From positions 1 through 39,207 of the forward strand of contig JAJTDQ010000015.1 in the NCBI GenBank assembly GCA_021300505.1: a stretch of DNA of 39,207 nucleotides, in the 5' to 3' direction. Source of the stretch: Cryomorphaceae bacterium (lineage in GTDB: Bacteria; Bacteroidota; Bacteroidia; Flavobacteriales_D; Crocinitomicaceae). The notes under the pieces are model-generated. The model did no database searches. It worked only from the letters and a program-made list of their open reading frames with translations, and had not been told where the DNA came from. This document shows, in pieces, positions 1 through 39,207 of this stretch. The translations under genes and the position numbers were made by a program. How positions within the stretch are numbered: the stretch's first letter is position 1; each line of letters starts with the position of its first letter.

Positions 1-215
1 CCCCCCCCCATCCTCTCGAATCATTCCTTTTCAGAACGGTGCTTTAGATTGTTCCTCCCCCCTCCCCCCCTCCAAAAGGGGGAGATTCCCGCTCCGAGTT
101 CAGAACCAATATGGAGGTTATATTCCGACTCACCATCTAAAGTGGGAAACCTATTCTCCCTTGGTGAGGTATTGGGAAAATCGATACCTTTGTCGCGCAC
201 AAAAAATACTCCACC
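1..215. other. Gene-free leader with C-tracts, upstream of pgk
   Basis: No credible gene is seen here; the short reading frames are low-complexity. The stretch begins with a run of nine C and has further C-runs near 55-72, followed by AAAA and GGGGG near 75-84. The CCCCC...GGGGG pair could form a small hairpin. The rest is the pgk promoter region and leader. The start of this stretch may be the tail of an intergenic region that continues outside the window. Confidence 0.6.
161..192 (+). promoter_or_regulatory. Bacteroidota-type promoter for pgk
   Basis: TTG at 161-163 is followed after 21 bases by TACCTTTG at 185-192. This fits the Bacteroidota housekeeping pattern (-33 TTG, -7 TAnnTTTG). 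Transcription would start near 199, giving a leader of about 17 bases before the ATG at 216. Such short leaders recur in this window. Confidence 0.55.
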
Positions 216-1409
216 ATGGCAGACATTCACACCTATGATTTTTCAGGAAAAAGAGCATTGATTCGAGTTGATTTTAATGTTCCCTTGGACAAAGAAACGA
301 TGGAAGTGACGGACGATACGCGTATTCGTGCCGCGGCGCCTACGATCTTGCATGTGCTGAAAAATGGGGGTAGTGTGGTGTTGATGTCACACCTGGGCCG
401 ACCAAAAAATGGTCCTGAGGATAAGTTCTCGTTGCGCCACATTGTGGATCACACGGCAAAGGTATTGGGTTGTGAAGTGTTGTTTGCAACAGATTGCATT
501 GGTGAAACGGCATTGGCCGCAAGTTCAGCGCTTAAACCAGGACAAGTATTGATGTTGGAAAATGTACGTTTTCATGCGGAAGAAACGGCTGGTGATGTTG
601 AATTTGCGAAGGAACTTGCTAAGAACGGCGATGTCTACATCAACGACGCTTTTGGAACTGCTCACCGAGCTCATGCTAGTACGACAGTGATTGCGCAATT
701 CTTTCCGAACGATAAACTTTTCGGTTTCTTGATTGAAGCGGAAATAAAAAGCGTGGATCGCGTGCTGAACAGCACCGATAAGCCATTGACGGCGATTGTT
801 GGTGGAGCGAAGGTCTCATCTAAAATCACAATCATCGAACGCTTGATTGAAAAAGTAGATAACCTCATCGTTGGTGGTGGAATGGCCTACACATTTGTAA
901 AAGCCAAAGGTGGCAAGGTCGGTGCTTCATTGGTGGAGGACGATTACTTGGATATGGCGCGGAAGATCATCAAAATTGCTGAAGATCGAGGGGTAAATCT
1001 TTACATTCCAACAGACACCATCATTGCAGACGCTTTTGATAACAATGCAAACCGTAAAGAAGTTGCCATCGATGAAATTCCTGATGGATGGATGGGACTC
1101 GATACAGGTTCACAAACTTCAGCAGACTGCCGTGAGATTATCTTGGCGTCAAAACTCATTCTGTGGAACGGTCCAATGGGGGTCTTCGAAATGGAAAACT
1201 TCCAGAAAGGAACTGCAGATGTTGCCATGGCGATCGTTGATGCGACGGCAAATGGTGCTTTCTCCCTGATTGGTGGAGGAGATTCCGTTGCTGCCATCAA
1301 TAAGTTTGGTCTTGCAGACAAGGTGTCTTATGTATCAACTGGTGGAGGTGCTATGCTTGAATATCTCGAGGGCATTGAACTCCCAGGCATCAAGGCCATT
1401 CGCGAATAA
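216..1409 (+). CDS. pgk: Phosphoglycerate kinase
   Basis: This cytosolic glycolytic enzyme transfers phosphate between 1,3-bisphosphoglycerate and ADP to make 3-phosphoglycerate and ATP. The 397 residues match the usual bacterial length. The N-terminal substrate domain opens with the conserved RVDFNVPL at about residues 17-24. It continues with the SHLGRP motif and LENVRFH. The C-terminal nucleotide domain carries [19 protein letters not shown] and the GGGDS loop near residues 353-357, followed by STGGGA. All these family signatures are intact. The ATG at 216 sits about 24 bases after a TACCTTTG promoter element. No other glycolytic gene is adjacent; the next gene is an ECF sigma factor with its own likely promoter. 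Confidence 0.97.
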
Positions 1410-1420
1410 AAATTTCTTTC

Positions 1421-1452
1421 GTGTAACTTTTCACACTCCTCGGGGTCTAATG
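1421..1452 (+). promoter_or_regulatory. Probable ECF-sigma-dependent promoter (autoregulation)
   Basis: TGTAACTTTT at 1422-1431 and GTCTAA at 1445-1450 are separated so that AAC (1425-1427) lies 17 bases before GTC. ECF sigma factors usually recognise an AAC-containing -35 and a GTC-type -10 at this spacing. The site lies directly upstream of an ECF sigma gene starting at 1470, so self-activation is likely. The TAnnTTTG element typical of the housekeeping sigma is absent here. Confidence 0.5.
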
Positions 1453-1469
1453 TCAGTTCGAACAAAAAA

Positions 1470-1955
1470 ATGACAGCAAAGGAGTACAATCTTGCAGTGG
1501 ATCAATTCGCTGACGGTATCTACCGTTTTGCACTCCGTCACCTGAAAAATGAGATGAGCGCAAAAGATATTGTACAAGAAACCTATACCCGCGTTTGGAT
1601 CAAGCATGAAGATGTTTCCTTCGAAAAGGCGAAGTCATATCTGTTCACTACGGCATATCATGCCATTGTTGATTGGTTCAAAACAGAAAAACGTGGCTTT
1701 GCCGATGGACCAATAGCCGAAGTAGCTGGAACGACATCTTCACCTACGGTTGACCTACAAGAAATTTTGCACGAAGCTTTAGAGACATTGCCTATCATTC
1801 AAAAGACGGTGGTGCTACTTAGGGATTATGAAGGCTACAATTATGGGGAAATTGCAGAAATAGCGGGGCTAAATGAGGCTCAAGTGAAGGTGTATATTTT
1901 TCGCGCTCGCAAAGCATTGCAGGCTTATATTCGACGTATTGATTTGGTTGTGTAA
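1470..1955 (+). CDS. RNA polymerase sigma factor, ECF (sigma-70) family
   Basis: This is a 161-residue alternative sigma factor that directs core RNA polymerase to a small regulon. Region 2 spans roughly residues 6-72 and includes the AKDIVQETYTRVW segment typical of ECF region 2.2. Region 4 spans about residues 105-158, with LPIIQKTVVLLRDYEGYNYGEIAEI followed by the helix-turn-helix LNEAQVKVYIFRARKAL. There is no region 3, as expected for ECF factors. The stop codon overlaps the next gene's ATG by one base (TAATG), implying translational coupling to the anti-sigma-like protein. An AAC/GTC-type promoter lies immediately upstream. The signal it responds to cannot be told from the sequence. Confidence 0.93.
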   Translation: MTAKEYNLAVDQFADGIYRFALRHLKNEMSAKDIVQETYTRVWIKHEDVSFEKAKSYLFTTAYHAIVDWFKTEKRGFADGPIAEVAGTTSSPTVDLQEILHEALETLPIIQKTVVLLRDYEGYNYGEIAEIAGLNEAQVKVYIFRARKALQAYIRRIDLVV

Positions 1956-2962
1956 TGGAAAGAAGGGAAATAAATAGCGACAATTACGAAGCATTTTACC
2001 TTGATTATCTCGAGGGAAATTTGAGCGCAGAAGAAAGTGCTCAGCTTCAGTCATTCCTTTTGCTTCACCCAGAATTGGAGCTTGATTTTGATGATGTGCC
2101 TCCCTTATTGCTAGCGCATACCCTACCCCTTCAACATGACTTCAAGCGCGGATTGAAACACGTTGATTTATTGAATGACGCGATCTCAGAACAAAATACA
2201 GAAGAGTTCATCATCGCACATCATGAAGGACTTCTAAGTGAGCAAAGGTCAGAAGAATTGTTTCTTTTTGTTCAAACGAATACTGCTCTTCAACATCTAT
2301 TTACTGCCTATGGGCGCATTCGACTTGAATCCCCTACTCAAGAAATTTATCCGAATAAAGCAGATTTGAAGCGCAAGTCGAGTCGCATTGTTCCGTTGCT
2401 TTATCTTTCCGGTGCGGCAGCGGCTATCGTTGTACTTTTCTTGGCATATCGATTTAATAGCGCTGCAGTTACTCAAGATAATGCTCCCGTTACAGCGCTG
2501 AAGAAAAGTGAACCTAAAACTGAAAAGCAAGGTACAGACGTACAGACTTCGGAGGAGCCACAACCGTTTTCGTGGAATACATCACCAATAGATCTGGATA
2601 ATCCATTTACTCCTCAACAATCACAGCATGACACTGAGTCAGTACCTGATGTAAGGATCAATCCGGAAATTGAACCTCAAGAAACACGAGTGGAAGCGCC
2701 CGAATTGGCGATGGACACACCGATTGTTACTCCACAACCAGAAGAAAATTCTTTAGCAGTGCTGAACACCGCAGAAAAAAACAAAGTGGGCGCAGACGAA
2801 TTTGTCAATCCGATCTTCCCTGTGACGAATGTGCTCACGAATGTATTGAACAAAGAAGTGGATTTTGGCACTACGCGCAAAGAAGTTGCCGATGGCCGAG
2901 GATTTTACATTAAGATTGGAAAGTTTGAGCTATCGCACAATGCGAGCCGCGCTTCTCGTTGA
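1955..2962 (+). CDS. Anti-sigma-factor-like membrane protein
   Basis: This 335-residue protein is likely the membrane-bound regulator of the sigma factor just upstream. The N-terminus (about residues 8-45) has the FYLDYLEGNLSAEESAQLQ and FLLLHPELE pattern of Bacteroidota anti-sigma proteins, with a similar second copy near residues 85-110 (FIIAHHEGLLSEQ). No zinc-binding HxxxCxxC motif is visible. One hydrophobic segment at about 146-168 would span the inner membrane. It is followed by a long low-complexity periplasmic part rich in P, E, Q and T. The start overlaps the sigma gene stop by one base. The sigma-binding role is inferred from gene order and the N-terminal pattern. Confidence 0.72.
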   Translation: MERREINSDNYEAFYLDYLEGNLSAEESAQLQSFLLLHPELELDFDDVPPLLLAHTLPLQHDFKRGLKHVDLLNDAISEQNTEEFIIAHHEGLLSEQRSEELFLFVQTNTALQHLFTAYGRIRLESPTQEIYPNKADLKRKSSRIVPLLYLSGAAAAIVVLFLAYRFNSAAVTQDNAPVTALKKSEPKTEKQGTDVQTSEEPQPFSWNTSPIDLDNPFTPQQSQHDTESVPDVRINPEIEPQETRVEAPELAMDTPIVTPQPEENSLAVLNTAEKNKVGADEFVNPIFPVTNVLTNVLNKEVDFGTTRKEVADGRGFYIKIGKFELSHNASRASR

Positions 2963-3020
2963 TTATTTGAACCCTGCGGGAATTCGGAATTTGATCCTGT
3001 CGGAATTCAGCATTTGATCA

Positions 3021-3064
3021 AGTCCTTTGTCCTTTGTCTTTCAGCGAAGTGGTCCTTTGTCATT
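3021..3064 (+). repeat. Dispersed 44-bp repeat, family A, copy 1
   Basis: This segment, with core TTCAGCGAAG flanked by GTC-TTTGTCC runs, matches the reverse complement of 24382-24425 at 39 of 44 positions by hand alignment. A more diverged same-strand copy lies at about 33045-33088. No reading frame crosses it. Its function is unknown. Confidence 0.7.
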
Positions 3065-3099
3065 AATGGTAGCTTCGAGACTTCCTTCGGAACACCAGT

Positions 3100-3150
3100 G
3101 AATTCAGAGCGATAGTGAGAACGGAGAGTGACCGGAGCATACACTAGTCT
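3100..3150 (+). repeat. Dispersed 51-bp repeat, family C, copy 1
   Basis: It starts with GAATTCAGAGCGA and contains GGAGAGTGACCGGAGCAT. Related copies lie at 32822-32872 and 33250-33300. Copy 1 and copy 3 agree at about 43 of 51 positions by eye. All copies are intergenic and in the same orientation. Confidence 0.7.
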
Positions 3151-3212
3151 TAAAATCTTGATGTCTTAGCATCTTGAAATCCACAATGCCCTTTGTCTTG
3201 ACTCGTCACTAC

Positions 3213-3243
3213 AAAAAAATACCCCGAACTTTCGCCCGAGGTA
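3213..3243 (-). terminator. Rho-independent terminator of the lipoprotein gene
   Basis: Read on the minus strand, a 10-bp stem (3234-3243 with 3220-3229, three G-U wobble pairs) closed by a GAAA tetraloop is followed by seven T. It lies about 25 bases past the stop of the minus-strand gene at 3267. Confidence 0.8.
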
Positions 3244-3266
3244 CCCTAAAAAATGGTGAGATCTAA

Positions 3267-3677
3267 TTATTTCGTTACCAATGTCATAATGTACGTAACA
3301 CCGTTGCTCGTGCTAGAAAGCTTCATTTCATCTTTTGTCAACCTTACTATTGTGTATGTTGTTGCACTACCTGAAGAATCAGTAAACGTAAGTGTCGATT
3401 TATCATCGCTCAATGCCCAAGTACCATTGTCAACGCTTGTTCCAAATATATTTGTTGTAATTGAAACAGTGTTGTCTTTTTTTACATCAATTGACTCAAC
3501 CGTATTGAACGATAAAATGTCATTTCCATTAGCTACCCAAGCGCTGACAGTCCATACATTTACTACACGTGACTTTGCAGAAAGCAATGTAAAATTTGAT
3601 CCTTCATCGTATTTTGCACATGAGCTGATTGTCATTGTTGCAGCAACGATCATTAAAATTCCGAATACCTTTTTCAT
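3267..3677 (-). CDS. Lipocalin-like lipoprotein
   Basis: This is a small 136-residue secreted lipoprotein. Starting at MKKVFGIL gives a signal peptide ending in the lipobox ISSC with lipidated Cys20; a start 22 codons further upstream would add an implausible extension. The rest has the short alternating strands of Bacteroidota lipocalin-like lipoproteins, including a W near VVNVWTV, the GTWALSDDKSTLTF hairpin and a KDEMKLSS strand. It probably forms a small beta-barrel anchored to a membrane on the periplasmic side. The ligand is unknown. The gene stands alone between the ECF locus and the carboxylase gene and has a strong terminator. The lipoprotein assignment is firm; the lipocalin-like fold is inferred. 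Confidence 0.75.
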   Translation of the reverse strand: MKKVFGILMIVAATMTISSCAKYDEGSNFTLLSAKSRVVNVWTVSAWVANGNDILSFNTVESIDVKKDNTVSITTNIFGTSVDNGTWALSDDKSTLTFTDSSGSATTYTIVRLTKDEMKLSSTSNGVTYIMTLVTK

Positions 3678-5429: not shown

Positions 5430-6617
5430 ATGCTACACTTTTACTCTTCCAGTACGCGCATGGTGAATACACGTCGCGGTGTTCAAGAATGTTTAGAATC
5501 AGCCATGGGCAATGACTTCCAAAACAGTGATTTGTTGATTTTCCACGCTGCTATCGGCCACGATTTTCAAGAAATGGTGGATGAAGCTGCCCAACTAGCT
5601 CCAAATGCGCGCATTGTTGCAGCATCTTGTTGTGGTGTTGTTGGACGTGAAGGAGTAAGTGAATCCATGAAAGACATGGCGCTGATGGCAGTGAAAGGAA
5701 AAGAATTCGCATTGGAGTCGTGCAATGAAATCTACGGCCATAACTCCTATGAGAAGACATTGGAGATGGCGAAAAGTCTTCATGCCGCTCAACCAGGCAT
5801 CAATATGCTTTACTTTTTAGCTTCTGGAATTGATATCGACAACGACAAATGCATCGAAGCACTTGAGTTTGTGTTTGGAGAAGGGGTTACCATCTTCGGT
5901 GCGACATCTTCAGATAACATGAAGGGATATGTTTCTTTCCAGGCCGTGGATAAACATGTATACGAGCACGGTGCATATGTCATCGGATTTTCGGATCCTA
6001 CATTAAAGGTGGAAACGCAAGCAACACATGGATTTGTAGCCATAGGCGAGCCTTTGGTGGTGACGAAGGCAGAAGGACATATTATCAAAGAATTTAACGG
6101 TAAACCTGCATGGACTGAGTATTTGAATCGTTTAGGATTGACGGGCAAAGAAGCTGATTGTGGCGATACCATTCCGCTTGGTGCTTTGGGGGAAAAATTG
6201 TCTCCCGCACTCGCAAAAGAATACGGAAACGAACATCTTCTGCGCGTAGTAACCAAGCACGATGGTGACGATATGCACTATGCAACGACAATTCATGAAG
6301 GTGCCGAGTTGTGGTTGACAACACGTGATGAGGACTTAATTTTCTCTGAAATGGACCGAATTGTTGAAGAAATCACGAAGCGTATGCAGGGCAAGGAGGC
6401 TGTAGCTGTCTTTCACGCAGACTGTTTGGCGCGCGGACGTTTTCTTTTCAACAGAATCATCAAGGAGGAACTTGTCAACCGCATGCAATATCCATTCTAT
6501 AGCAATGGCGAATGTCCACCGTGGTTGGGAATGTATGGCTTTGGTGAGTTTGCGCGTTTGGGAGGAAAAAATACCTACCACAACTACACAACCGCTTTGT
6601 ATGTGATTTATCGCTAA
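5430..6617 (+). CDS. FIST domain sensor protein (NosP-like)
   Basis: The 395-residue cytosolic protein has a FIST N domain (about residues 25-220, with IVAASCCGVVGREGV and TIFGATSSDN) and a FIST C domain (about 225-375, ending with NGECPPWLGMYGFGEFARLGG). No signal peptide or membrane segment is seen. FIST proteins are sensory. The NosP subgroup binds haem, senses nitric oxide and controls a co-encoded histidine kinase. Here a histidine kinase starts six bases after the stop and a response regulator follows, which fits that arrangement. The haem ligand cannot be assigned by eye, so NO sensing is inference; amino acid sensing, proposed for other FIST proteins, is also possible. Confidence 0.85.
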   Translation: MLHFYSSSTRMVNTRRGVQECLESAMGNDFQNSDLLIFHAAIGHDFQEMVDEAAQLAPNARIVAASCCGVVGREGVSESMKDMALMAVKGKEFALESCNEIYGHNSYEKTLEMAKSLHAAQPGINMLYFLASGIDIDNDKCIEALEFVFGEGVTIFGATSSDNMKGYVSFQAVDKHVYEHGAYVIGFSDPTLKVETQATHGFVAIGEPLVVTKAEGHIIKEFNGKPAWTEYLNRLGLTGKEADCGDTIPLGALGEKLSPALAKEYGNEHLLRVVTKHDGDDMHYATTIHEGAELWLTTRDEDLIFSEMDRIVEEITKRMQGKEAVAVFHADCLARGRFLFNRIIKEELVNRMQYPFYSNGECPPWLGMYGFGEFARLGGKNTYHNYTTALYVIYR

Positions 6618-6623
6618 GCGAAT

Positions 6624-8705
6624 ATGCCACACACCTTAAGTCCGGAAGAGCTATATCAAAAATACCTCGACTTACAGTTGAGGGTAACACGATTTTCATC
6701 TATCGAGCAGGAATTGATCAACACGCGTGATCAGCTCGACCATGAATTGGTAATGCACAAGCGTCTACTGGAGTTTAATGCAGAGGCACTTAAGCTCAGC
6801 TCTGAAAAGGATTTTATTCACTTGGTGGCAGAGTCCCTAATCGATGTGTGCGAGTCACAAATTGCGTATGTTTCCTTTATAAACAAAAGAAATACTGAGC
6901 GCTTTTTGGTTTTGGAGGGTGTGCGTAAAAAAGATGAGCCTACTGTAATAGATGAGCTTGAGCACTCGATGGCCGCAAATTCTATTCAAAAGGGTGTGGA
7001 AATTGTGCATCTGGGAGAAGAATCCAACGGTATCATTACGAGTTGCATGTATTCTTCAATTATTCATATCAATGCGCATATGAATATCGTAATTGCAACC
7101 GCTGTCTCAAAGGAAAAAGCGCCTCTCTATCCAGCCATCAAAGATCGTTCAAAAATCTTGTTTTCGTTGTTTGCGCAACAGGTGGAATCCATTCTTTCCA
7201 ACATCATCATTGCACAGCAAAATCGTGAGCAGATGAGTACGATTGCCAATGCACAAATAGAATTAAAGAAATTATCGCTCATTGCCACAAAGGCAAAAAG
7301 TGGGGTAATCATTTCTGATTCTATGGGAAGAATTGAGTGGGTAAACAACTCTTTTGAGCAAACAACTGGATTTAAGCTAGAAGAAGTTATCGGTAAAAAG
7401 CCGAAAGAGTTTCTTCAATCAGATTTAACAAGTAAAGAGGATAAAGAAAAAATGGCTAGTGCCCTAGCGGCAAAAAAAAGCGTTGAATTAACGGTATTGA
7501 ATAAAAGTAAATCGGGACAACACTATTACAACCAATTAGTCATTACACCTGTCTTCGACGAGGAAGGAAATCACATCAATTTTATTGCACTTCAAAAAGA
7601 CATTACTGCTGAAGAGAATTATAAAAAGGAACTGATTCAAATCAATTCACGTTTCGAGTTAATTACAAATGGAGCAAACATCGGTATGTGGGAATGGGAT
7701 TGTGTAAAGAACATTACAGTTTGGAATTCCGTCCTTCATAAATTCTACGGCATCAAAGAAGAGGAGGATTTGAATCGAAATACAGTCTGGTATGATTCGA
7801 TTCACCCAGACGACAAGGAAGATATGGAGGAAAATATGTCTTTGCTTTCATCGGGAAAAAAACACGTTATTGAGCAAAATTACCGGGTGATTCGTCAACG
7901 ATTCAATAATGATATTCGCTATGTTAAGAGCCTATCTCAAGGCATCTGGGACGAAGGAAAAAAGCTTGTTCGTATCGTTGGTTCTTCAATTGATATTACC
8001 GAAGAAAAGGAATACGAGTCGCGATTGATTGATAAAAATACCGAGCTCGAAAAAATCAACAAAGAACTCGACCAGTTCATTTACAGCATTTCACATGACT
8101 TGCGCTCTCCTCTCCTTTCTATCAAAGGACTTTTGACCTTGATCGAAACCTCTGTTGATGAATCAGAATCTAAACTGTACCATGAATTGATTGGAAAAAG
8201 TGTTGGAAGGTTAGACAATACGATCCTTGAAATTCTTGCATACAGCAGAAATGCACGAGTTGATATTCAACGTGACGCGTTTAACTTGAAAGAAATAGTT
8301 GAACAGCTGTTTGAAGATTTATCCTTCATGGCAGCTGAAGGCGAGCCAATAATTGTTTCAGACAGAACGCGAATTGAAACACTGCTTAAAAATTTGATAT
8401 CAAATGCTATAAAGTACCGAAAGAAGAATGCGACCGATTCTTTGGTTCATGTGAAAATGAAGAATGAAGGTGCCTCTTTCATGATTGAGGTAATTGACAA
8501 TGGCGAGGGCATTTCAGAACGAAACCAGAAAAAGGTATTCGATATGTTTTACCGCGCATCTTCGAGTAGCCAAGGCACAGGACTCGGCTTGGCGATGTGT
8601 CAAGAAATCGTCAAAAAACTGAAAGGTGAAATAAAATTAACATCGCAACTTGGTGAGGGAACAACAATTACCTTAATTTTACCTAACAATCCACTAAGCG
8701 CATGA
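6624..8705 (+). CDS. Cytosolic GAF-PAS-PAS sensor histidine kinase
   Basis: The 693-residue kinase has no membrane segment. An N-terminal coiled stretch is followed by a GAF-like domain (about residues 45-195). PAS 1 (about 218-332) ends at KDITAEE and PAS 2 (about 342-460) ends at IDITEEK. A linker coiled coil precedes HisKA, where the phospho-acceptor is His491 in SISHDLRSP. The HATPase domain has the N box NLISNAIKYR, G1 IDNGEGIS and G2 GTGLGLAM, all intact, so it should be active. The PAS 1 domain has a LOV-like layout but lacks the LOV cysteine. The gene lies 6 bases after the FIST gene and overlaps the response regulator by ATGA. The likely input is the FIST protein; the likely output is the following regulator. 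Confidence 0.92.
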   Translation: MPHTLSPEELYQKYLDLQLRVTRFSSIEQELINTRDQLDHELVMHKRLLEFNAEALKLSSEKDFIHLVAESLIDVCESQIAYVSFINKRNTERFLVLEGVRKKDEPTVIDELEHSMAANSIQKGVEIVHLGEESNGIITSCMYSSIIHINAHMNIVIATAVSKEKAPLYPAIKDRSKILFSLFAQQVESILSNIIIAQQNREQMSTIANAQIELKKLSLIATKAKSGVIISDSMGRIEWVNNSFEQTTGFKLEEVIGKKPKEFLQSDLTSKEDKEKMASALAAKKSVELTVLNKSKSGQHYYNQLVITPVFDEEGNHINFIALQKDITAEENYKKELIQINSRFELITNGANIGMWEWDCVKNITVWNSVLHKFYGIKEEEDLNRNTVWYDSIHPDDKEDMEENMSLLSSGKKHVIEQNYRVIRQRFNNDIRYVKSLSQGIWDEGKKLVRIVGSSIDITEEKEYESRLIDKNTELEKINKELDQFIYSISHDLRSPLLSIKGLLTLIETSVDESESKLYHELIGKSVGRLDNTILEILAYSRNARVDIQRDAFNLKEIVEQLFEDLSFMAAEGEPIIVSDRTRIETLLKNLISNAIKYRKKNATDSLVHVKMKNEGASFMIEVIDNGEGISERNQKKVFDMFYRASSSSQGTGLGLAMCQEIVKKLKGEIKLTSQLGEGTTITLILPNNPLSA

Positions 8706-9094
8706 TCCGTTTCCTTCTTATTGACGACGACGATATTATTTCTGTTATTCATCCTGCGACAATTCAGCGCGCAATCAGCGATAGTGATATCGAAATAACA
8801 CCATCTGGCACCGAGGCTCTTGAGCTAATTGATGTACTGATCAAGAACAATGAAACACCACCAGATTTTATCTTCCTAGACATTAATATGCCTGAAATCA
8901 GCGGGTTTGAGTTTTTGGATCGTCTTACGGAGGAAGAAAAAATATTTCTCAAGGATAGTCAAATCATCATGCTTTCGTCTTCGGTAAACCATCAGAATAT
9001 TGAACGTGCGAAGTCCTATCCCATGATTCGTGACTTCGTGTCTAAGCCACTCACCGTAGAATATATTCGCGGTCTCGTAGGTAATACGAACTGA
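8702..9094 (+). CDS. Single-domain response regulator (CheY-like)
   Basis: This 130-residue receiver domain has no output domain, so it likely acts by protein contact or passes phosphate onward. The acidic pocket is Asp8-Asp10, the phospho-acceptor Asp60 lies in FIFLDINMP, the switch Ser lies in MLSSS (about 91-94), and Lys115 lies in SKPL. The start codon overlaps the stop of the histidine kinase gene (ATGA), showing translational coupling with that kinase. A downstream DNA-binding or diguanylate cyclase partner is not present in the window. Confidence 0.92.
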   Translation: MIRFLLIDDDDIISVIHPATIQRAISDSDIEITPSGTEALELIDVLIKNNETPPDFIFLDINMPEISGFEFLDRLTEEEKIFLKDSQIIMLSSSVNHQNIERAKSYPMIRDFVSKPLTVEYIRGLVGNTN

Positions 9095-9130
9095 TTTCAT
9101 TCCATTGTCGTGCATGTGACAGAAGGTTCT

Positions 9131-9138
9131 TATCTTTG
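9131..9138 (+). promoter_or_regulatory. TAnnTTTG promoter element for aspS
   Basis: TATCTTTG lies 35 bases before the aspS ATG. A TTG at 9105-9107 is 23 bases upstream, slightly longer than the best spacing. The element separates aspS from the two-component operon before it. Confidence 0.45.
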
Positions 9139-9173
9139 GACCTTCGTTTCAACGAATCTTAATACTTTCAGAA

Positions 9174-10919
9174 ATGTACAGATCACACACCTGCGGGGAA
9201 CTTCGCACAGCACAAATCGGTCAAACAGTAACACTCTCAGGATGGGTACAGCGCTCACGCGACCTTGGTGGAATGACTTTCGTTGACTTGCGCGATCGCT
9301 ATGGCATTACACAGCTAGCATTCAACATGGAGGTAGATGCTGAACTGTGTGAAAAAGCCCGCAAATTAGGTCGTGAGTTTGTCGTTCAAGCCGTGGGCGA
9401 AGTGATTGAGCGTTCGAGCAAGAACAAAAATATAGCTACGGGTGAAATCGAAATCCGTGTGACAGAACTTCATATCTTGAATGCGGCGAAACTGCCTCCA
9501 TTTACCATTGAAGACGATACAGATGGAGGAGATGAACTTCGCATGCAATACCGTTACCTCGATCTTAGAAGAACTCCCGTACAGCAAAAATTGATGTTGC
9601 GCAACAAAGTTGCCTTGGAAACACGTGTTTATCTAAATGAACAAGGATTCCTTGATGTTGAAACCCCTATATTGATTAAATCAACACCTGAAGGAGCGCG
9701 CGATTTTGTGGTCCCTAGCCGCATGAACCAAGGACAGTTTTATGCTTTACCTCAGTCACCACAAACCTTCAAGCAGCTTTTAATGGTGTCTGGATTTGAC
9801 CGCTACTATCAAATTGTAAAGTGCTTCCGTGACGAAGACTTACGTGCTGACCGTCAGCCTGAGTTTACTCAAATCGACTGTGAAATGGCTTTTGTTGAGC
9901 AGGACGACATCTTGAATACCTTTGAAGGTTTGATCAAGCATCTTTTCAAAACTGTTCGTGGTGTAGATTTTACAGAAGCTTTTCCTCGCATGCAGTATTC
10001 TGAAGCGATGGAACGCTATGGTTCAGACAAGCCAGACATTCGCTTCGGAATGGAATTGATTGATTTGAGCGACCTTGCCATTGGTAAAGGATTCGTGGTA
10101 TTTGACAGCGCAGAAGCTGTGATTGCTATCAACGCTGAGAATTGCGGTGAATTTACACGCAAGCAAATTGACGAGCTAACGGAATGGGTAAAGCGTCCTC
10201 AAATTGGTGCGAAAGGGTTGGTCTATGTAAAATGCAACGCCGATGGCACATATAAGTCTTCAGTTGATAAATTTTATACTCAAGAAGATCTTGCGGCATG
10301 GGCTGAAAAAGCCGGAGCGAAAACGGGAGACTTGATGCTTTTGCTTTGTGGTGACCTTGAAAAAACACGTAAGCAGTTGAATGAACTGCGTTTGCACCTT
10401 GGAAATGAACTTGGTTTACGCGATCCAAATGTCTTCAAACCATTGTGGGTTCTCGACTTTCCTCTTCTGGAATGGGACGAAGAAAGTGGTCGCTACCACG
10501 CGATGCATCATCCATTTACTTCGCCAAAACCTGAGGACATGCACCTCATCCAAACGGAGCCAGGAAAGGTGCGTGCAAATGCCTATGATCTAGCCATGAA
10601 TGGTGTAGAGTTGGGTGGAGGTTCAATCCGTATTCACGACCGCGACTTGCAATCACGCATGTTCGATCTACTTGGATTTACCAAGGAAGAAGCCCAAGAT
10701 CAATTCGGATTCTTGATGAGTGCTTTTGAATATGGTGCGCCACCACACGGTGGTTTGGCATTCGGATTAGACCGTTTGGTTGCTACAATGGGTGGATCAG
10801 AATCGATTCGTGATTATATCGCATTCCCAAAAAACAATAGTGGTCGCGACACAATGATTGATGCGCCTTCCCTATTGAATGCGGCACAATTGAAAGAATT
10901 GGGAATTGCTCTGAAATAA
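9174..10919 (+). CDS. aspS: Aspartate--tRNA ligase
   Basis: This class II aminoacyl-tRNA synthetase charges tRNA-Asp with aspartate using ATP in the cytosol. The 581-residue length is typical of the bacterial type. The N-terminal OB-fold anticodon-binding domain covers about residues 1-105 ([21 protein letters not shown]). The catalytic core has motif 2 with [21 protein letters not shown] near residues 217-237 and motif 3 [12 protein letters not shown] near residue 526. The bacterial GAD insertion lies between them at about 290-410. [13 protein letters not shown] is also conserved. Whether it is discriminating or also makes Asp-tRNA-Asn depends on the presence of AsnRS elsewhere, which cannot be seen here. 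Confidence 0.97.
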
Positions 10920-32770: not shown

Positions 32771-32821
32771 CTTGCTAAGATACAAAATTCGGCGGCATTG
32801 AAAATGCTATCGCATGCCACC

Positions 32822-32872
32822 GAATTCAGAGTGAGAGTGAGAATGGAGAGCGACCGAAGCATACATCATTCC
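32822..32872 (+). repeat. Dispersed 51-bp repeat, family C, copy 2
   Basis: GAATTCAGAGTGAGAGTGAG and GGAGAGCGACCGAAGCATACAT match the copies at 3100-3150 and 33250-33300. Similarity with copy 3 goes on beyond 51 bases into TTGTACTTCGAA and AGCG(A)AA parts. Confidence 0.7.
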
Positions 32873-32912
32873 TTTGTACCTTGTACTTCGAAGCTCAAAG
32901 AGCGAATAAGGA

Positions 32913-32988
32913 CCATTGTCCAATTAAGAATTTGATGCTGCGCAAATTTGACGCCATAGGCGATTCAGAATTTGTTGCTACGCAATTG
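32913..32988 (+). repeat. 76-bp direct repeat, family E, copy 1
   Basis: It begins CCATTGTCCAATT and ends CAATTG, and includes the mini-hairpin CGCCATAGGCG. Copy 2 lies 184 bases downstream with the same length. Confidence 0.75.
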
Positions 32989-33044
32989 AAAATTTGTTCC
33001 CTTCGGGAATTTGAAGAAATCATAACAGGAGCGAAGAAAGATCA

Positions 33045-33088
33045 AGTCTATGTTCTATGCTCCTTCAGCGAAGCGCCTTGTCCGCCGA
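33045..33088 (+). repeat. Dispersed repeat, family A, diverged copy 3
   Basis: GATCAAGTC at its left edge and CTTCAGCGAAG in the middle match the family A copy at 3021-3064 in order and spacing. The segments between differ more than in copies 1 and 2. Confidence 0.5.
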
Positions 33089-33096
33089 GGCGAGGT

Positions 33097-33172
33097 CCAT
33101 TGTCCAATTTAGAATTTAATTGCTGCGCAATTTGACGCCATAGGCGATTCAGAATTTGATGCTTTGTAATTG
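33097..33172 (+). repeat. 76-bp direct repeat, family E, copy 2
   Basis: This is the second copy of 32913-32988, sharing TTTGACGCCATAGGCGATTC and flanks, with about nine differences by eye. Confidence 0.75.
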
Positions 33173-33249
33173 GATGTTTCAAAATACGAAGGACAATCAA
33201 GTCTTTCTATTTTTGAGTCTATAATCATTTAGACCTTATCACACACACC

Positions 33250-33300
33250 GAATTCAGAGCGAGAGTGAAAACAGAGAGCGACCGAAGAATGCACCAGTCT
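33250..33300 (+). repeat. Dispersed 51-bp repeat, family C, copy 3
   Basis: GAATTCAGAGCGAGAGTGAA, then GAGAGCGACCGAAGAATGCA and CCAGTCT, match copies 1 and 2. Confidence 0.7.
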
Positions 33301-33652
33301 ATTGTCTTTCCGTCCATTGTACTTCGAAAATCAAGGAGCGAAAAAACTTTGTCTTTTATCGAAGGGTTTAGTGGAAGTTTTTCTTCTTTATCATTGTTTT
33401 GTGCAGAAATCAACGAAATTTCCTTACCTTTCTTTGATGAAATTTACACTGCCCAGCGCTAAAGGCTTTGATAATCAAGTAGAATTAGTGTCTAAAGACA
33501 TCAAAAACTCAACTGTGGATAAATTTTCTTCCTCCAAAAAAATAAATATAGAACGAGATATTATGTTTCAAGGTGAGTTCATCACTTTTGAAATGCCACA
33601 CTTCAGTTCAATAACAATGTGTTCAATTAAACGAATGATACAATTTTAATCC

Positions 33653-34078
33653 ATGGATAAACTTAAATACGCAATAGTTTGCGTGGATGATGACCCGACT
33701 ATACTTCAGATGATTAGTTTTCAACTACAGAAGTATGTAGATGAAGAATGCACTTTAATTGAGTTTTTTACCAGCCCGATTAAAGCACTTGAAAGTATTG
33801 ACGATTTGATTGGGGAGGATATCGATATAATTTTCATTGTTGTTGACTACCAAATGCCGGAAATGAATGGTGCCGAACTAATAAGAAACATTAAAATTAA
33901 TCATCCCGAGATGAAATGTATCATGTTGTCTGGGCAGGCGAATGCAATTCAGGTCGACGACCTTGTAAATGATAATCTTCTGGACTCATTTATTCCAAAA
34001 CCATGGAATGAAGAAGATCTAATTAAAGCTATAATTCCATTTCTGGAGGATCGTGATTTAATACTTAAAAAGCCATGA
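33653..34078 (+). CDS. Single-domain response regulator of the sensing cluster
   Basis: The 141-residue receiver domain has acidic residues Asp12-Asp14, phospho-acceptor Asp65 in VVDYQMPEMNG, Ser93 in MLSG and Lys116 in PKPW. The C-terminal tail is only about 15 residues, so there is no DNA-binding domain. It probably acts by protein contact or within a phosphorelay. Its stop overlaps the start of the outer-membrane protein gene (ATGA). It is the first gene of a same-strand cluster that ends with a histidine kinase, its probable partner. Confidence 0.92.
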   Translation: MDKLKYAIVCVDDDPTILQMISFQLQKYVDEECTLIEFFTSPIKALESIDDLIGEDIDIIFIVVDYQMPEMNGAELIRNIKINHPEMKCIMLSGQANAIQVDDLVNDNLLDSFIPKPWNEEDLIKAIIPFLEDRDLILKKP

Positions 34079-35157
34079 AATACTCTGTAAAAAGAAAGAG
34101 TCACTTCCTCGTGATTCTTTTTATGACTATTCTTTCAGTAACCGTGAATGGACAAAAAATTGAAACTCAGTTCAATGGATTCGGCCATTTAGAGTTTATC
34201 GCAGATTATTCCGATGCTACAAATGCTGCTTTTGCCATCGGCGAACATGACTTTTTTGTCAATTCTAAATTGAGTAAAAGGATTTCATTTTTAGGAGAAT
34301 ATGTGATTCGATTCAATGGTAAATCAGCAACATCATTTTTACCAAGTATAGAGAGATCATTACTAAAATTCAACTATTATAAAAATCATAATTTGATTGT
34401 TGGTAAAATCCATACACCGGTGAACTATTGGAACGATAGCTATCATCATGGCCGGTTATTTTTTCCAACAATAGATCGCCCTTTGGCATTTAGTTACATC
34501 ATACCTTTGCATACACTGGGTTTGCAGATTCAAGGCCAAAATCTAGGGAAGTGGAATTTTGGATATGACCTTGTCGTTGGAAATGGAATCAACAGTACCG
34601 ATGGAATCAATACTGGGATTGACTTTTCATATACTGCGGCATTTCATATAAAGCCATTTGAAAACTTTAGACTGGGCATGTCACATTTCTACGAAAAGAC
34701 AAAAAGTCATAATCCGGGAACCCACAGCGGTCACTCAACAGTGTATCCGCATTACGAAGGAGAAACATATACGGGGCCAATGACTTTAAATCTTACAAGT
34801 GCTTCTCTTTCCTATTTTGGCAATCGACTAGAACTTTTGAATGAAGCATCGTACAATAGAACATTCACCGACTCGTTAGGTGCAGCTAATAATTGGTCTA
34901 ACTTCTCCTACCTTGGCTACAGAGTGACTGACAATTCAATTCCCTACATGGTTGCAGACTTCATTAACATAGCTGAAAATGACCTCTATGTCCACCCTTT
35001 CGATCTATTAAAACTCTGTCTAGGTTATCGTCATGAATTTAACCATTTACTGAGCCTTAAGACACAAGTGGAATACCTGACTTCCTTGCATCAACATGAA
35101 GACCATTCTCATGTACAGCGTTTCTCATTCAGAGTACAGTTCGCATATGGGTTTTAA
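34075..35157 (+). CDS. Outer-membrane beta-barrel protein (porin-like)
   Basis: The 360-residue protein has a signal peptide (about 1-26, ending VNGQ). Alternating hydrophobic strands follow, such as RISFLGEYVIRF, KWNFGYDLVVGNG and FRLGMSHFYEK, and a final strand ending in aromatic Phe (RFSFRVQFAYGF), which is typical of outer-membrane barrels. His-rich stretches (HNPGTHSGHSTVYPH, and HQHEDHSH near the C-terminus) would lie in loops or turns and could bind metal. No TonB box or plug domain is seen. It resembles short phosphate-selective porin-like proteins, but I do not recognise a named family. The start overlaps the response regulator stop, and a PstS-like gene follows after 10 bases, so it may admit the sensed solute. 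Confidence 0.75.
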   Translation: MKYSVKRKSHFLVILFMTILSVTVNGQKIETQFNGFGHLEFIADYSDATNAAFAIGEHDFFVNSKLSKRISFLGEYVIRFNGKSATSFLPSIERSLLKFNYYKNHNLIVGKIHTPVNYWNDSYHHGRLFFPTIDRPLAFSYIIPLHTLGLQIQGQNLGKWNFGYDLVVGNGINSTDGINTGIDFSYTAAFHIKPFENFRLGMSHFYEKTKSHNPGTHSGHSTVYPHYEGETYTGPMTLNLTSASLSYFGNRLELLNEASYNRTFTDSLGAANNWSNFSYLGYRVTDNSIPYMVADFINIAENDLYVHPFDLLKLCLGYRHEFNHLLSLKTQVEYLTSLHQHEDHSHVQRFSFRVQFAYGF

Positions 35158-35167
35158 ATTGTCTATC

Positions 35168-35605
35168 ATGAAAATACGATCTCTACTCTTTATTTCACTG
35201 CTAACACTGCTATCTCAGTCTACAATAGCACAAAATGGTGACATGAATAATTTGGTGATTATCGGAAACAACATTGGTACTGTTTCTTTGAAGAAAACCA
35301 CGTTAATAAATGTATTAAAAGGCCGTTTAGATTCTTGGAACAACAATGTTACCGTTAAAATCGTGCTCCCTTCTCAAAAAAACGAGTCAGCCGCACTAAC
35401 AGCAAAAGTGTTTTACGGAACAACGGTCAAAGGCATGCAAAAATTTTGGTTGTCCTTGGTTTTTCAAGGAAGAGCAAATCCACCAATTTTCTTAGACACC
35501 GACGAAGAAATCATCATTTTTGTTCAAAAAAATCCAGGTTCAATAGGTGTGATCCATGAAGGCGTCGATTACCCTAAGAGTCTAAAAATTAATATTATCA
35601 ATTAG
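35168..35605 (+). CDS. Small PstS-like periplasmic binding protein
   Basis: I use the ATG at 35168, giving 145 residues with a signal peptide ending TIAQ at residue 22. The mature part resembles the phosphate-binding-protein-like (PstS, PBP-like) fold but is only one lobe long. It contains LKGRLDSWNNNVTVKIVLP, MQKFWLSLVFQGRANPPIF and NPGSIGVIHEG. The equivalents in PstS-like proteins are the F-x-G-x-x-x-x-W, yW-x-x-x-x-F-x-G and pGaIGY patterns. No ABC transporter genes are nearby, so a role in signalling, not uptake, is likely. The ligand could be phosphate or another oxyanion. It lies between the outer-membrane barrel and the kinase. Confidence 0.75.
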   Translation: MKIRSLLFISLLTLLSQSTIAQNGDMNNLVIIGNNIGTVSLKKTTLINVLKGRLDSWNNNVTVKIVLPSQKNESAALTAKVFYGTTVKGMQKFWLSLVFQGRANPPIFLDTDEEIIIFVQKNPGSIGVIHEGVDYPKSLKINIIN

Positions 35606-35614
35606 AGAACAATC

Positions 35615-37327
35615 ATGCTTAGAGGCCTTTCTATTCAAATTTGGTTACCCTTTACGGTTTTATTCTTGATTATCACGATTGCATTTAATTTATACTATCC
35701 AAAAAAACAAGAAGACTTTTATATTAAAAATAAAAACAACGAACTCAAGGAATTAGCGAAAACGGTTGGATTAGGTGTCGAACTTTCATTAAGTGAAGAT
35801 AACTTTCAAGGTCTCAAAAAGACACTCGACTTTGCGTCTGGAAGAAAGGATTTTGAATTCATTGCCATTGTCGTGCGAGAAGGTTTGACCGAAAGGGTTT
35901 TTACAAGTTATCCTATCCTTCCTGAAAAAGAAATCTTAACGAAAAAATCGGAAAAATACATTTACCAACGCAGCAAATTCTCTAGTAATGAATTTCATGG
36001 ATACATATTAATTGCCGCGTCTAAACGGAAAATGTCCGAAGAGCTTTCTGCACTTAACCGACCGATATACTTTTCTACTCTCATCATATTCTTTTTAACG
36101 TTTATTAGTTATGTAGCAATTGCAAGACGAATAACTCGGCCCTTGAATCAACTCGTAAAGATCACCGAGGATATGCGGGTTGAAAATTTCAATAACTTTC
36201 CATTGCATCAATTTACTCGTGATGAAATCGGTAAGTTAGGGCAATCCATTTATGATCTGCAACAAAAACTCATTGAACAACGGAATCAAAATAAGGAATT
36301 ATATGATGGATTGGAGCACGAGATAAAACTTCGAACGAAAGAACTCGAGCAAGCAACAGATGATCTTATCGAATCACAAAGGGCTGCTTCACTTGCGAAT
36401 TATACTATGAATGTCAATTCTGGTACAGGCAAATTCCCCGAGCTTCTATTCAAGCTGTTGGAAATCGATCAATCCGAGAGTCTTTCATTGGAAACACTAA
36501 AAACATTCGTCCACAAGGATGATTACCTTTCATTTTCCTCTCTTATTGATCACCCAAGTGAGGGGTCAAACTTTAAAAATGAATTTTGCTTAATCAGCAC
36601 GAGTGGCAATTCATTTTGGCTTTCGATAAGTGGATTAATAAAAAGAGATGTTCATTCGACTAATCTTATGATTAGTGGATTATTACAGGACATTACTGAA
36701 CGAAAGAGCTATGAAAACGAGATTAAAAAATTATCATTGGTTGCTCAGAACACCTCCAATTGTGTCATAATTACAGATGCCTACCGAAAAATAATTTGGG
36801 TTAACGAAAGTACATTGAAAATTACTGGTTACAGCCGTGATGAGATTATAGGTAACACGCCTAAAATGTTTCAATGTGAAAAAACTAATCCTAAAACAAT
36901 AGACTTTATTCGCGAAAAACTCGATGAAAATGAAAGGGTTAACTGCGAAGTTCTCAATCGTTCAAAAGATGGGAGGGATTATTGGCTAGATTTAAATATT
37001 GTTCCCCTTTTCAATGAAAGTGATGATCTTTATGGTTATATCGCCGTTGAAACAGACATCACTCCAATCAAAGAAGCATCGTTGGAACTTGAAGAGCGAG
37101 AGAAGCAATTGAGAGATATTTTGGATAATTCATCTGAAATGATTCATACGTTGGACAAAAAAGGAAATCTGCTTTGGGTTAATCAATCGTGGAAAGACAA
37201 CCTTGGTGTATCTGATTCTGATCTTCATAATCGCAATATCTCTGAATTTTTCGATCATAAAACGAAATTAGAATTTACTTGGCCAATATTACGCAGATTG
37301 TTAATGCAGAACGAGAACTTAACATGA
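35615..37327 (+). CDS. Sensor half of a split histidine kinase (HAMP-PAS-PAS-partial PAS)
   Basis: The 570-residue protein has TM1 at about 8-26, a periplasmic sensor domain at about 28-147, TM2 at about 148-168 and a HAMP domain to about 222. A coiled coil follows to about 262. PAS 1 (about 262-367) ends at DITERK, PAS 2 (about 374-490) ends at TDITPIK, and PAS 3 starts at about 498 (NLLWVNQSWKDNLG). PAS 3 breaks off near residue 553; the last 17 residues (after KLEF) look out of frame. The C-terminal kinase region is in the next frame. About 45-50 residues of PAS 3 seem missing at the junction near 37276. The stop overlaps an ATG of the next frame (ATGA). It could be a real split kinase, a decayed gene, or a consensus error. 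Confidence 0.82.
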   Translation: MLRGLSIQIWLPFTVLFLIITIAFNLYYPKKQEDFYIKNKNNELKELAKTVGLGVELSLSEDNFQGLKKTLDFASGRKDFEFIAIVVREGLTERVFTSYPILPEKEILTKKSEKYIYQRSKFSSNEFHGYILIAASKRKMSEELSALNRPIYFSTLIIFFLTFISYVAIARRITRPLNQLVKITEDMRVENFNNFPLHQFTRDEIGKLGQSIYDLQQKLIEQRNQNKELYDGLEHEIKLRTKELEQATDDLIESQRAASLANYTMNVNSGTGKFPELLFKLLEIDQSESLSLETLKTFVHKDDYLSFSSLIDHPSEGSNFKNEFCLISTSGNSFWLSISGLIKRDVHSTNLMISGLLQDITERKSYENEIKKLSLVAQNTSNCVIITDAYRKIIWVNESTLKITGYSRDEIIGNTPKMFQCEKTNPKTIDFIREKLDENERVNCEVLNRSKDGRDYWLDLNIVPLFNESDDLYGYIAVETDITPIKEASLELEEREKQLRDILDNSSEMIHTLDKKGNLLWVNQSWKDNLGVSDSDLHNRNISEFFDHKTKLEFTWPILRRLLMQNENLT

Positions 37328-38811
37328 TCTCGAATTTACAGAAAATCCTTATGGACATTTCCATAGACTTTTTAAATGTTGATCCTCTTGAAACCAAAGA
37401 GATCGTTTGGAAATCGATTGAAAAAATTGGGAAATTTCTGCAAGTTGAAGTTATTTCAACAATTAATTTGTTAGATGAAAGAAGTATACTTCAGGATACA
37501 TTGAATCAAGCAGATACCGAAAAAATCAAGCTGTCAGAGAACGCTAATTCAACTGAAAATATCCCGAATGGTAATCACTTAGCTCAAAATCGAATATTGA
37601 TTCCATTAATACGCGATAACAATACTGTTGGAGATCTTATTTTAATTTTTCCAAGTTCTAGAATAATTTTACCTCAAGAAATAGAACTCTTAAAGCTATA
37701 TGCGACAATGCTTGTTAACATTGAAAACAGGTACTTATCTGCTAGTGAATTAAGCGACGCTAAGAAAGAAATTGAAGCGATGAATTCAACGCTTGAATCG
37801 AAAGTCCTCGAAAACACGAAGCGAAATCTTGATTTATCGAAAACAATTGTAGAACAAGAAAAAATGGCAACAATCGGTGAGATTTCAGCAGGAATTGCAC
37901 ATGATTTGAATACTCCATTAGGTGCGATCAAAATTGGGGCTGAAAGTATCAGCTACTCACTAGAATCACTTTTCAAACTATTTCCAAAGCTGTCAGATGA
38001 GGAAATTAAGTTATTGTTGGAACTATCACGCAACAGAAAAATTGAAGTTTTCGTTGGTGGACTGCAATTAATGCGTGAATCAAAAGATATGATCGAATTT
38101 TTACAGAACGATCTTGGACTTGATCATTTGAACATAAAAAAAATAGCAGAACTTTTTGTAAAGTGTAGGATAAACAGGGAAGACAAAGAATTGATTTTCA
38201 ATATTATGCGTTTTCAAAATACGGAAACCTTCCTTGAGACACTATCAACAGTATTAACTACCTATTCTATGCTTTCCTCAGTAGGAGATTCAGTTACGAA
38301 AGCCACGGATGTCGTTCAAAATGTAAGATCATTCATCAAAAAAGATATATCAAGTGGAATCAAAAGGAAAGAGATTAACTTAAAAGATAATATCCGGATT
38401 GTATTAAACATTTTTAATTACGAATTCAAGAAGAACGTGAACCTCGAGGTTGACATAGCTGACCAACTTATTATAAAAGGTTTCGATGTCAAACTTTTCC
38501 AATTATGGTCTAATCTGATTAAGAATGCCATAGATGCTATGGAAAAAACAACAGACAAAAAGCTAATCATCAAAGGCTTCGAAAAGGAAGGAAATATACT
38601 TGTATCTATCTCTAACAATGGGGAAATGATCCCACAAGAGATTCAGGACCATATATTTAAAAAGTTCTTTTCGACTAAAAAAGAAAAAAATGGAACTGGA
38701 CTGGGATTAAGCATTGTTCAAAATGTGATACATGAGCATAGCGCGAAAATCACTTTAAATTCGAATGAAGAATTAACTACATTTACTGTTCAATTTAAAA
38801 AGATTAGCTAG
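37324..38811 (+). CDS. Kinase half of the split histidine kinase (GAF-HisKA-HATPase)
   Basis: From the ATG at 37324 this encodes 495 residues. The same frame is open further upstream and there reads ANITQIVNAEREL, the exit of a PAS domain, showing that it was once fused to the preceding protein. A GAF-like domain covers about 1-140, followed by a coiled coil. The phospho-acceptor is His193 in GIAHDLNTPLG. About 95 helical residues are inserted between the two HisKA helices (roughly 220-315). The HATPase domain has NLIKNAIDAM, SNNGEMIP and GTGLGLSIV. The G1 box has Asn where Asp is usual, a change common in this kinase group. It should phosphorylate the regulator at 33653. Confidence 0.85.
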   Translation: MISNLQKILMDISIDFLNVDPLETKEIVWKSIEKIGKFLQVEVISTINLLDERSILQDTLNQADTEKIKLSENANSTENIPNGNHLAQNRILIPLIRDNNTVGDLILIFPSSRIILPQEIELLKLYATMLVNIENRYLSASELSDAKKEIEAMNSTLESKVLENTKRNLDLSKTIVEQEKMATIGEISAGIAHDLNTPLGAIKIGAESISYSLESLFKLFPKLSDEEIKLLLELSRNRKIEVFVGGLQLMRESKDMIEFLQNDLGLDHLNIKKIAELFVKCRINREDKELIFNIMRFQNTETFLETLSTVLTTYSMLSSVGDSVTKATDVVQNVRSFIKKDISSGIKRKEINLKDNIRIVLNIFNYEFKKNVNLEVDIADQLIIKGFDVKLFQLWSNLIKNAIDAMEKTTDKKLIIKGFEKEGNILVSISNNGEMIPQEIQDHIFKKFFSTKKEKNGTGLGLSIVQNVIHEHSAKITLNSNEELTTFTVQFKKIS

Positions 38812-38816
38812 TCTCA

Positions 38817-39207
38817 ATGATTAAACGTTGCATTTTTTCATTTGTCATCTTGTTGACCCACCAAGTCAACGCACAAGGATTGTATTTTCCACCTAACGTT
38901 GGTGATCAATGGGATACCATACATCCGCAAACATTGGGATGGTGTCAACCGAAAATAGACAGCCTGTATGCCTACTTGGACACCAACAATACCAAGGCTT
39001 TTATCCTTTTGAAGGACGGGAAAATCGTTCTTGAGAAATATTTTGGAACACACACGGCAACAACTCCATGGTATTGGGCATCGGCAGGAAAAACAATCAC
39101 CTCCTTCATGGTGGGAATGGCTCAGCAAGATGGTTATTTATCCATTGAGGACACTACGTCGCAGTACCTCGGGCAAGGTTGGACAAACACCACACCTGCG
39201 CAAGAGG
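38817..39207 (+). CDS. Serine hydrolase (beta-lactamase family), 5' part only
   Basis: The reading frame starts at the ATG at 38817 and runs off the window; 130 codons are visible. It begins with a signal peptide (MIKRCIFSFVILLTHQVNAQ). The visible part has AFILLKDGKIVLEKYFG and then SAGKTITSF, where Ser89 and Lys92 form the SxxK nucleophile motif of class C beta-lactamase-like serine hydrolases. QDGYLSIEDT follows, as usual in this family. It is probably a periplasmic or secreted peptidase or esterase. The gap from the kinase stop is 5 bases, but its base composition is less A/T-rich than the cluster, so it may be an older neighbour. Confidence 0.85.
   Translation, partial: MIKRCIFSFVILLTHQVNAQGLYFPPNVGDQWDTIHPQTLGWCQPKIDSLYAYLDTNNTKAFILLKDGKIVLEKYFGTHTATTPWYWASAGKTITSFMVGMAQQDGYLSIEDTTSQYLGQGWTNTTPAQE

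Follow-up and report, generated by a model that had tools for sequence, protein, structure and literature searches.

A porin, a one-lobe PstS-like protein and a periplasmic sensor domain form a probable sensing unit with exchangeable output in Bacteroidota

Introduction

In VpvABC of Vibrio cholerae, a porin (VpvA), a periplasmic binding protein (VpvB) and a membrane diguanylate cyclase (VpvC) are predicted to form a three-component signaling module of unknown signal (PMC12456836, in its available text). There, vpvAB is put forward as a sensing unit that may be conserved in Pseudomonadota and was later linked to a diguanylate cyclase; the operon search was limited to Pseudomonadota, and the main text as available contains neither ‘Bacteroid’ nor ‘histidine kinase’. 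Here we describe a cassette with the same gene order of porin, binding protein and membrane receptor in a 39,207-nucleotide stretch of a Cryomorphaceae bacterium (contig JAJTDQ010000015.1 of assembly GCA_021300505.1), hereafter the window. As output it has a histidine kinase and a receiver protein, whereas VpvABC has a diguanylate cyclase.

The output, which defines VpvABC, was tested and proved different, and the cassette is therefore not assigned to VpvABC; it is a Bacteroidota variant of the VpvABC kind with another output. The phylum is Bacteroidota, with some Gemmatimonadota bins, and the window sensor domain is unmatched in the Pseudomonadota receptors examined. The likeness is one of gene order and of the available description, and the sequences compared below come from Pseudomonadota plasmid pairs, not from VpvA and VpvB. 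An earlier note on this DNA, made from the sequence, had known of no described system with this outer-membrane partner, a statement that VpvABC overturns. No account of the Bacteroidota form was recognized among the literature matches listed, a coverage that leaves out most subscription journals.

Two other systems share part of the layout. YfiR is not known to be a PstS-like lobe, and the AioX-AioS-AioR cluster has a full-size binding protein and no known outer-membrane partner. Like the cassette, YfiBNR combines an outer-membrane part, a small periplasmic protein and a receptor with a periplasmic PAS domain, but YfiB is a lipoprotein, where the cassette has a modelled porin-type barrel, and the output is cyclic di-GMP (c-di-GMP), unlike the cassette kinase (PMC4655355, in the part available). 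In AioX-AioS-AioR, a periplasmic binding protein is the first component of a histidine-kinase system with oxyanion ligands (PMC5908839, likewise in part).

Results

Porin, one-lobe protein and sensor occur together

Gene order was examined in two sets of loci, with about 8 genomes common to both. First, a search of 299 genomes of the order with the one-lobe protein matched 32, and these 32 loci were fetched with flanks (L033-L064). The porin gene lies beside the one-lobe gene in 31 of them, and the last (L063) starts inside the one-lobe gene at a contig start; the L059 porin is divided between two frames. A receptor follows the one-lobe gene in 29 loci, and the other three (L041, L057, L058) stop at or just past the one-lobe gene. 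A receiver gene directly upstream of the porin, as in the window, is present in seven (L033, L034, L036, L037, L039, L040, L052).

Second, an independent scan of named genomes started from the porin alignment and kept 80 loci out of 146 relatives (L070-L149), belonging to Bacteroidota, to Gemmatimonadota and to a few differently named bins. The one-lobe gene comes directly next in 78 of the 80 (L116 and L121 end there, at the contig end), and a sensor-bearing gene comes next in 71, as judged with a profile built on the sensor part and leaving out HAMP. Of the remaining nine, six end at a contig edge, L081 has 275 bases left, and L076 and L131 have room and no receptor. At E 1e-3, the sensor profile matched no other open reading frame (ORF) in these 80 loci. 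Two of them, L102 and L103, carry different phylum names yet seem to come from a single organism; the phylum given for an individual metagenome bin therefore needs to be read with caution. Three further relatives of the genus (L177-L179) have all three genes.

When co-occurrence was counted over the 299 genomes, the one-lobe protein was found in 32, the sensor in 33 and both in 31, adjoining in each; the exceptions (G119, G201, G285) are all at contig ends. Contig-end cases apart, the sensor domain does not occur without the one-lobe protein in these genomes. The Fisher value of 1.2e-38 treats genomes as independent and thus overstates the strength. Gene-order conservation is far beyond chance, and the recurrence in other Bacteroidota that the earlier note had proposed as a check is borne out by the porin-first loci.

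Neighbors recurring in at least five loci are kinases and regulators, a lone receiver and a haem-NO-binding protein. ABC ATPase, DnaX-like and phosphodiesterase families appear in 4 loci each at scattered places, the ABC ATPase 3 to 5 genes away. The haem-NO-binding (HNOB) gene, identified with Pfam in L136 (5562-6098), recurs in 5 loci at a distance of a few genes on the upstream side.

The sensing parts diverge in step and the output is exchanged

The 71 sensor-bearing ORFs of the porin-first set carry different outputs: HATPase in 59, adenylate/guanylate cyclase in 3 (two Maribacter, one Segetibacter) and SpoIIE in 1, with 7 cut by contig ends and 1 (L111) showing a weak HisKA only. In L181, the same sensor is coupled to an MCP domain (E 3.4e-51). 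On a quick tree of 73 porins, 57 with a checked output and unscanned or cut receptors left unlabeled, the output changes at least 4 times, with cyclases in two places and four long branches (L181, L183, L185, L068). A scan of third genes covered 56 ORFs, 47 with HATPase_c; the frames taken in L076, L094 and L131 were wrong, the L094 receptor being at 8523-10874.

Spearman correlations of pairwise distances over 42 loci are 0.72 for porin and one-lobe protein, 0.71 for porin and sensor, and 0.62 for one-lobe protein and sensor. The HATPase domain correlates at 0.24 with the porin, 0.26 with the one-lobe protein and 0.20 with the sensor, and its distances have a similar mean and spread; it tracks the sensor weakly though both are on the same polypeptide. 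Bootstrap intervals of the correlation difference are 0.26-0.64 and 0.18-0.54. Restricting the sensor to its periplasmic part gives values of 0.58 and 0.48. Since porin, one-lobe protein and sensor diverge in step and the kinase catalytic domain follows them weakly, the three appear to form a sensing unit with exchangeable output.

Components of the cassette

All five reading frames lie on the + strand (Table 1). Receiver and porin genes overlap by 4 bases, gaps of 10 and 9 bases separate the porin gene from the one-lobe gene and the latter from the kinase, and the two kinase frames overlap by 4 bases. The earlier note had read five same-strand reading frames here, encoding a receiver-only regulator, an outer-membrane barrel, a one-lobe PstS-like protein and a membrane kinase with its own periplasmic domain, as parts for a route across the envelope with no ABC transporter genes beside the binding protein. 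Frames, overlaps and gaps are as it gave them, but the two kinase frames together make up a single gene. Its regulator is a lone receiver, and its route is supported as a sensing unit with outer-membrane, periplasmic and inner-membrane parts. No permease or ATPase genes adjoin the one-lobe gene in the window, its neighboring ORFs having been judged by eye.

Table 1. Features of the cassette in the window.
Feature	Position	Strand	Basis
Receiver-only response regulator, 141 residues	33653..34078	+	Pfam Response_reg 4.8e-16
Putative outer-membrane porin-type barrel, 360 residues	34075..35157	+	Structure model; signal-peptide-like start read from sequence
Most conserved porin stretch, residues ~110-145: strand end and long following loop	34402..34509	+	Alignment of 67, model
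Putative one-lobe PstS-like periplasmic protein, 145 residues	35168..35605	+	Profile alignment; signal-peptide-like start without lipobox cysteine, read from sequence
Kinase: first transmembrane segment (TM1), predicted PAS-like periplasmic sensor domain (residues ~28-147), start of second (TM2)	35615..36070	+	
Kinase: HAMP domain, residues 169-219	36119..36271	+	Pfam HAMP 1.3e-05
Broken histidine kinase, N-terminal part, 570 residues in frame: sensor, HAMP, PAS domains, last PAS shortened	35615..37327	+	
Lesion region: frame change, relatives with 39-48 extra residues	37276..37298	+	blastp against unsplit L097, L082
Broken kinase, C-terminal part: HisKA, HATPase_c; from ATG 37324, frame open from 37261	37324..38811	+	Pfam

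The 34075 protein was modelled as a porin of about 16 strands, in agreement with the barrel of the earlier note. OprO and OprP are closest in predicted fold, though a fold of about 16 strands is common also to general porins. To these phosphate and pyrophosphate porins, the identity is 10-11%, and the 34075 protein does not reach the cut-off of Pfam Porin_O_P (PF07396), with no match at E ≤ 0.1. Only 2 of 67 porin family members match Porin_O_P, weakly (best 0.0026), and profile searches of the family against Pfam, NCBIfam and the PDB gave no confident family, nor did Pfam report any domain in the 34075 protein. The most conserved loop is placed by the model between strands 105-113 and 146-157, and in residues ~110-145 H113, W119, N120, H125, R127 and R135 are invariant in the 67 sequences. 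The loops had also been called His-rich, a description that largely falls away: H113, H125 and H146 are invariant, H124, H191 and H217 exceed 90%, and most remaining loop histidines are rare across the 67 homologs.

For the 35168 protein, a PBP-like fold match was found by sequence profile, not by predicted fold. The one-lobe family profile aligned with five two-lobe PstS-like proteins of ~305 residues at hhalign E 2.1e-11, over residues 114-210, within one inner lobe. Pfam PBP_like_2 matched the 35168 protein at E 0.019, below the cut-off, over model positions 92-153 of 267, and matched 14 of 30 family members at E ≤ 1 (best 6.1e-07); the PDB profile search of the family gave weak PstS matches only. 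By sequence, the protein resembles the inner part of two-lobe PstS but is half its size, with no apparent second lobe, no SGT motif and no adjoining ABC transporter genes. An ordinary PstS or ABC substrate-binding protein was considered and rejected, as 145 residues align to one lobe only and permease and ATPase neighbors are missing. A search of the source genome found no second copy.

The kinase runs from a transmembrane segment through the periplasmic domain, a second transmembrane segment, HAMP and PAS domains to a weak HisKA (0.00098, below the cut-off) and HATPase_c (6.7e-20), so the earlier membrane kinase with its own periplasmic domain is confirmed. With HisKA and its phospho-accepting His, HATPase_c and an adjoining receiver partner, it classes as a histidine kinase, in a broken gene. 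Of 48 family members, 18 carry an NNG variant of the G1 box. The periplasmic sensor domain is predicted by a structure model to be PAS-like, a LapD-type domain being among its nearest folds. The GAF domain of the earlier note was not recovered in either half by Pfam at E ≤ 1, though some relatives carry one, such as L078 of Algoriphagus marincola, in which the cassette is unsplit with HATPase and GAF present.

Both halves are matched by 26 relative ORFs (~18 distinct genomes) in a list that covers unsplit ORFs only. Only L097 and L082 (= L040) can be aligned as far as the break itself, where they have 39 and 48 more residues; the break falls inside a PAS domain. Splits were looked for separately: 12 of the 71 sensor-bearing ORFs are without HATPase, and in no case does a HATPase ORF follow within 1500 bases. 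From sequence comparison, the two frames are one kinase broken by a lesion, with 39-48 PAS residues missing and the frame changed, which we read as either a deletion or an assembly error. Barring an assembly error, the copy in the window may therefore be unable to signal.

In L111 (8398-10152), a receptor of a related genome has the same sensor with a weak HisKA only and no HATPase match; its near twin L112 differs. In L040, the receiver gene and porin are immediately preceded by a second large kinase gene (2-3304) resembling the window kinase halves.

Relatives in Pseudomonadota and Persicobacter

Thirteen Pseudomonadota stretches (L065-L067, L150-L159) were drawn from 22 plasmid records matching a Pseudoalteromonas one-lobe protein and 3 Pseudomonadota records matching that of the window. 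The Bacteroidota profile recognizes the one-lobe protein of every stretch (E 6e-8 to 5e-23). Seven stretches (L067, L151-L154, L157, L158) have a porin-like barrel, the one-lobe gene and a c-di-GMP (GGDEF/EAL) or chemoreceptor (MCP) neighbor, the chemoreceptor being on the opposite strand in L067 and L157 and upstream in L158. In L150, L156 and L159, a barrel-size gene comes after the one-lobe gene, not before. Nine barrels jointly match the Bacteroidota porin by profile comparison at E 2.3e-12, compared with 0.056-0.52 for reversed or shuffled controls; L158 was left out and the L066 barrel was lost through a different frame start. Taken singly, these barrels give weak scores against the Bacteroidota porin profile or none.

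Two Persicobacter megaplasmids (L068, L069) have the porin and one-lobe genes followed by a receptor-like gene; in that of L068, GAF domains are all that Pfam finds at E ≤ 1e-3. In L150, an Alteromonas macleodii plasmid (3917-8315), the one-lobe gene adjoins an ORF of ~387 residues and type IV CRISPR csf genes.

Discussion

Work on most bacterial receptors takes the inner membrane as the place where sensing starts. In this case a periplasmic sensor domain is co-inherited with a dedicated porin and a half-size binding protein, and the cytoplasmic output is swapped, which suggests that the VpvAB idea reaches past Pseudomonadota and c-di-GMP. The question of the VpvABC ligand becomes approachable in cultured hosts such as Algoriphagus, Hymenobacter, Spirosoma and Maribacter, with different read-outs.

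With strict co-occurrence and co-divergence of its parts, and with output exchange behind a constant sensor, the cassette is probably a trans-envelope sensor of the porin, one-lobe binding protein and HAMP-receptor kind. We conceive that the porin would admit or select a small solute, most likely anionic. The one-lobe PstS-like protein would bind the solute and dock on the PAS-like periplasmic domain of the kinase, the docked state would be passed via TM2 and HAMP to the kinase, and the kinase would set the phosphorylation of the neighboring receiver protein. Such a course presumes contact among the three proteins, a signal running inward, a ligand of this class and the receiver as the target of the kinase. 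An anion is our best guess for the ligand; phosphate itself is weakened as a candidate because the SGT phosphate loop is missing in all 73 one-lobe proteins.

Several observations weigh against this scheme, the missing SGT loop among them. The sensor profile finds no match in Persicobacter or in the Pseudomonadota receptors examined, and L076 and L131 lack a receptor despite having room for one. The porin was found in 7 of 395 genomes phylum-wide, its own genome included, and among the six others the one-lobe gene is beside the porin in five and this sensor is present in three (L180, L181, L182), upstream of the porin in L182. The kinase in L185 has a different periplasmic domain, the pair in L183 has no adjoining receptor, and the porin of L184 is interrupted, with no one-lobe protein found. 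Gene order is therefore looser in the wider phylum, not universal. The weak HATPase correlation could come in part from domain shuffling common to all kinases, and the kinase of the window itself is broken.

A broader proposal, which we regard as tentative and rather doubtful, is that the porin and one-lobe protein are a widespread, phylum-crossing sensing head plugged onto any output: a kinase, an adenylate cyclase, a PP2C-type phosphatase, a chemoreceptor or a c-di-GMP enzyme. The single lobe would have no cleft of its own, its site would be completed by the receptor sensor domain or by the periplasmic face of the porin, and the ligand would be read as a periplasm-spanning complex.

The broken kinase raises the possibility, which we also rate as the less likely one, that the cassette in the source genome is a decaying remnant without function. 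Besides the missing PAS residues and changed frame, presence is patchy in the order (32 of the 299 genomes), and the L111 receptor likewise has no HATPase match. However, the remaining frames are open and conserved, and the lesion may have arisen in assembly or consensus calling, the metagenome genome being fragmented (2.4 Mb, 174 contigs, 85% complete). Decay would in any case bear on the source-genome copy only, not on the system.

The main rival to solute sensing is an envelope-state sensor, in which the porin, or its assembly state, would hold the one-lobe protein at the outer membrane and free it on envelope disturbance to inhibit or activate the receptor, as YfiB and YfiR do with YfiN in Pseudomonas. 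A LapD-type domain takes protein input, and one is among the nearest sensor folds; the single lobe lacks half of the normal binding cleft. The three-compartment layout is also that of YfiBNR, but YfiB is not a porin (PMC4655355, in the part available). The outer-membrane part of the cassette is predicted to have a fold of channel-forming type, with OprO/OprP nearest, and its conserved loop is charged; this suggests a solute, so that we consider an envelope-state sensor unlikely.

It is less probable still that the porin is a passenger serving general uptake, with the one-lobe protein and kinase alone as the sensor. Binding protein-kinase systems of this type, AioX-AioS and GltB-GtrS, are established (AioX, PMC5908839, in part). 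However, the porin is linked as tightly as the one-lobe protein, it co-diverges with the sensor no less closely (0.71, against 0.62 for the one-lobe protein), and it is retained when the output is exchanged. Finally, that the kinase frames are a true split sensor-kinase pair with translational coupling at ATGA, as the stop/start overlap at 37324-37327 could indicate, is highly improbable given the break inside the PAS domain, the residues missing relative to unsplit relatives and no such split among the 71 sensor-bearing ORFs.

Other features of the window

Just upstream of the cassette, at 32818-33345, there are short interspersed repeats, mostly of 30-70 bases; 51 sites across the genome match at E ≤ 1e-3, counting the query. 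Further upstream, at 5430-9094, another sensory unit consists of consecutive genes for a FIST-domain protein, a PAS histidine kinase and a receiver-like protein, the receiver being assigned by eye. On the other side, a beta-lactamase-family gene (38817-39207) starts 5 bases past the kinase stop and is cut by the contig end; it might be on the same transcript as the cassette.

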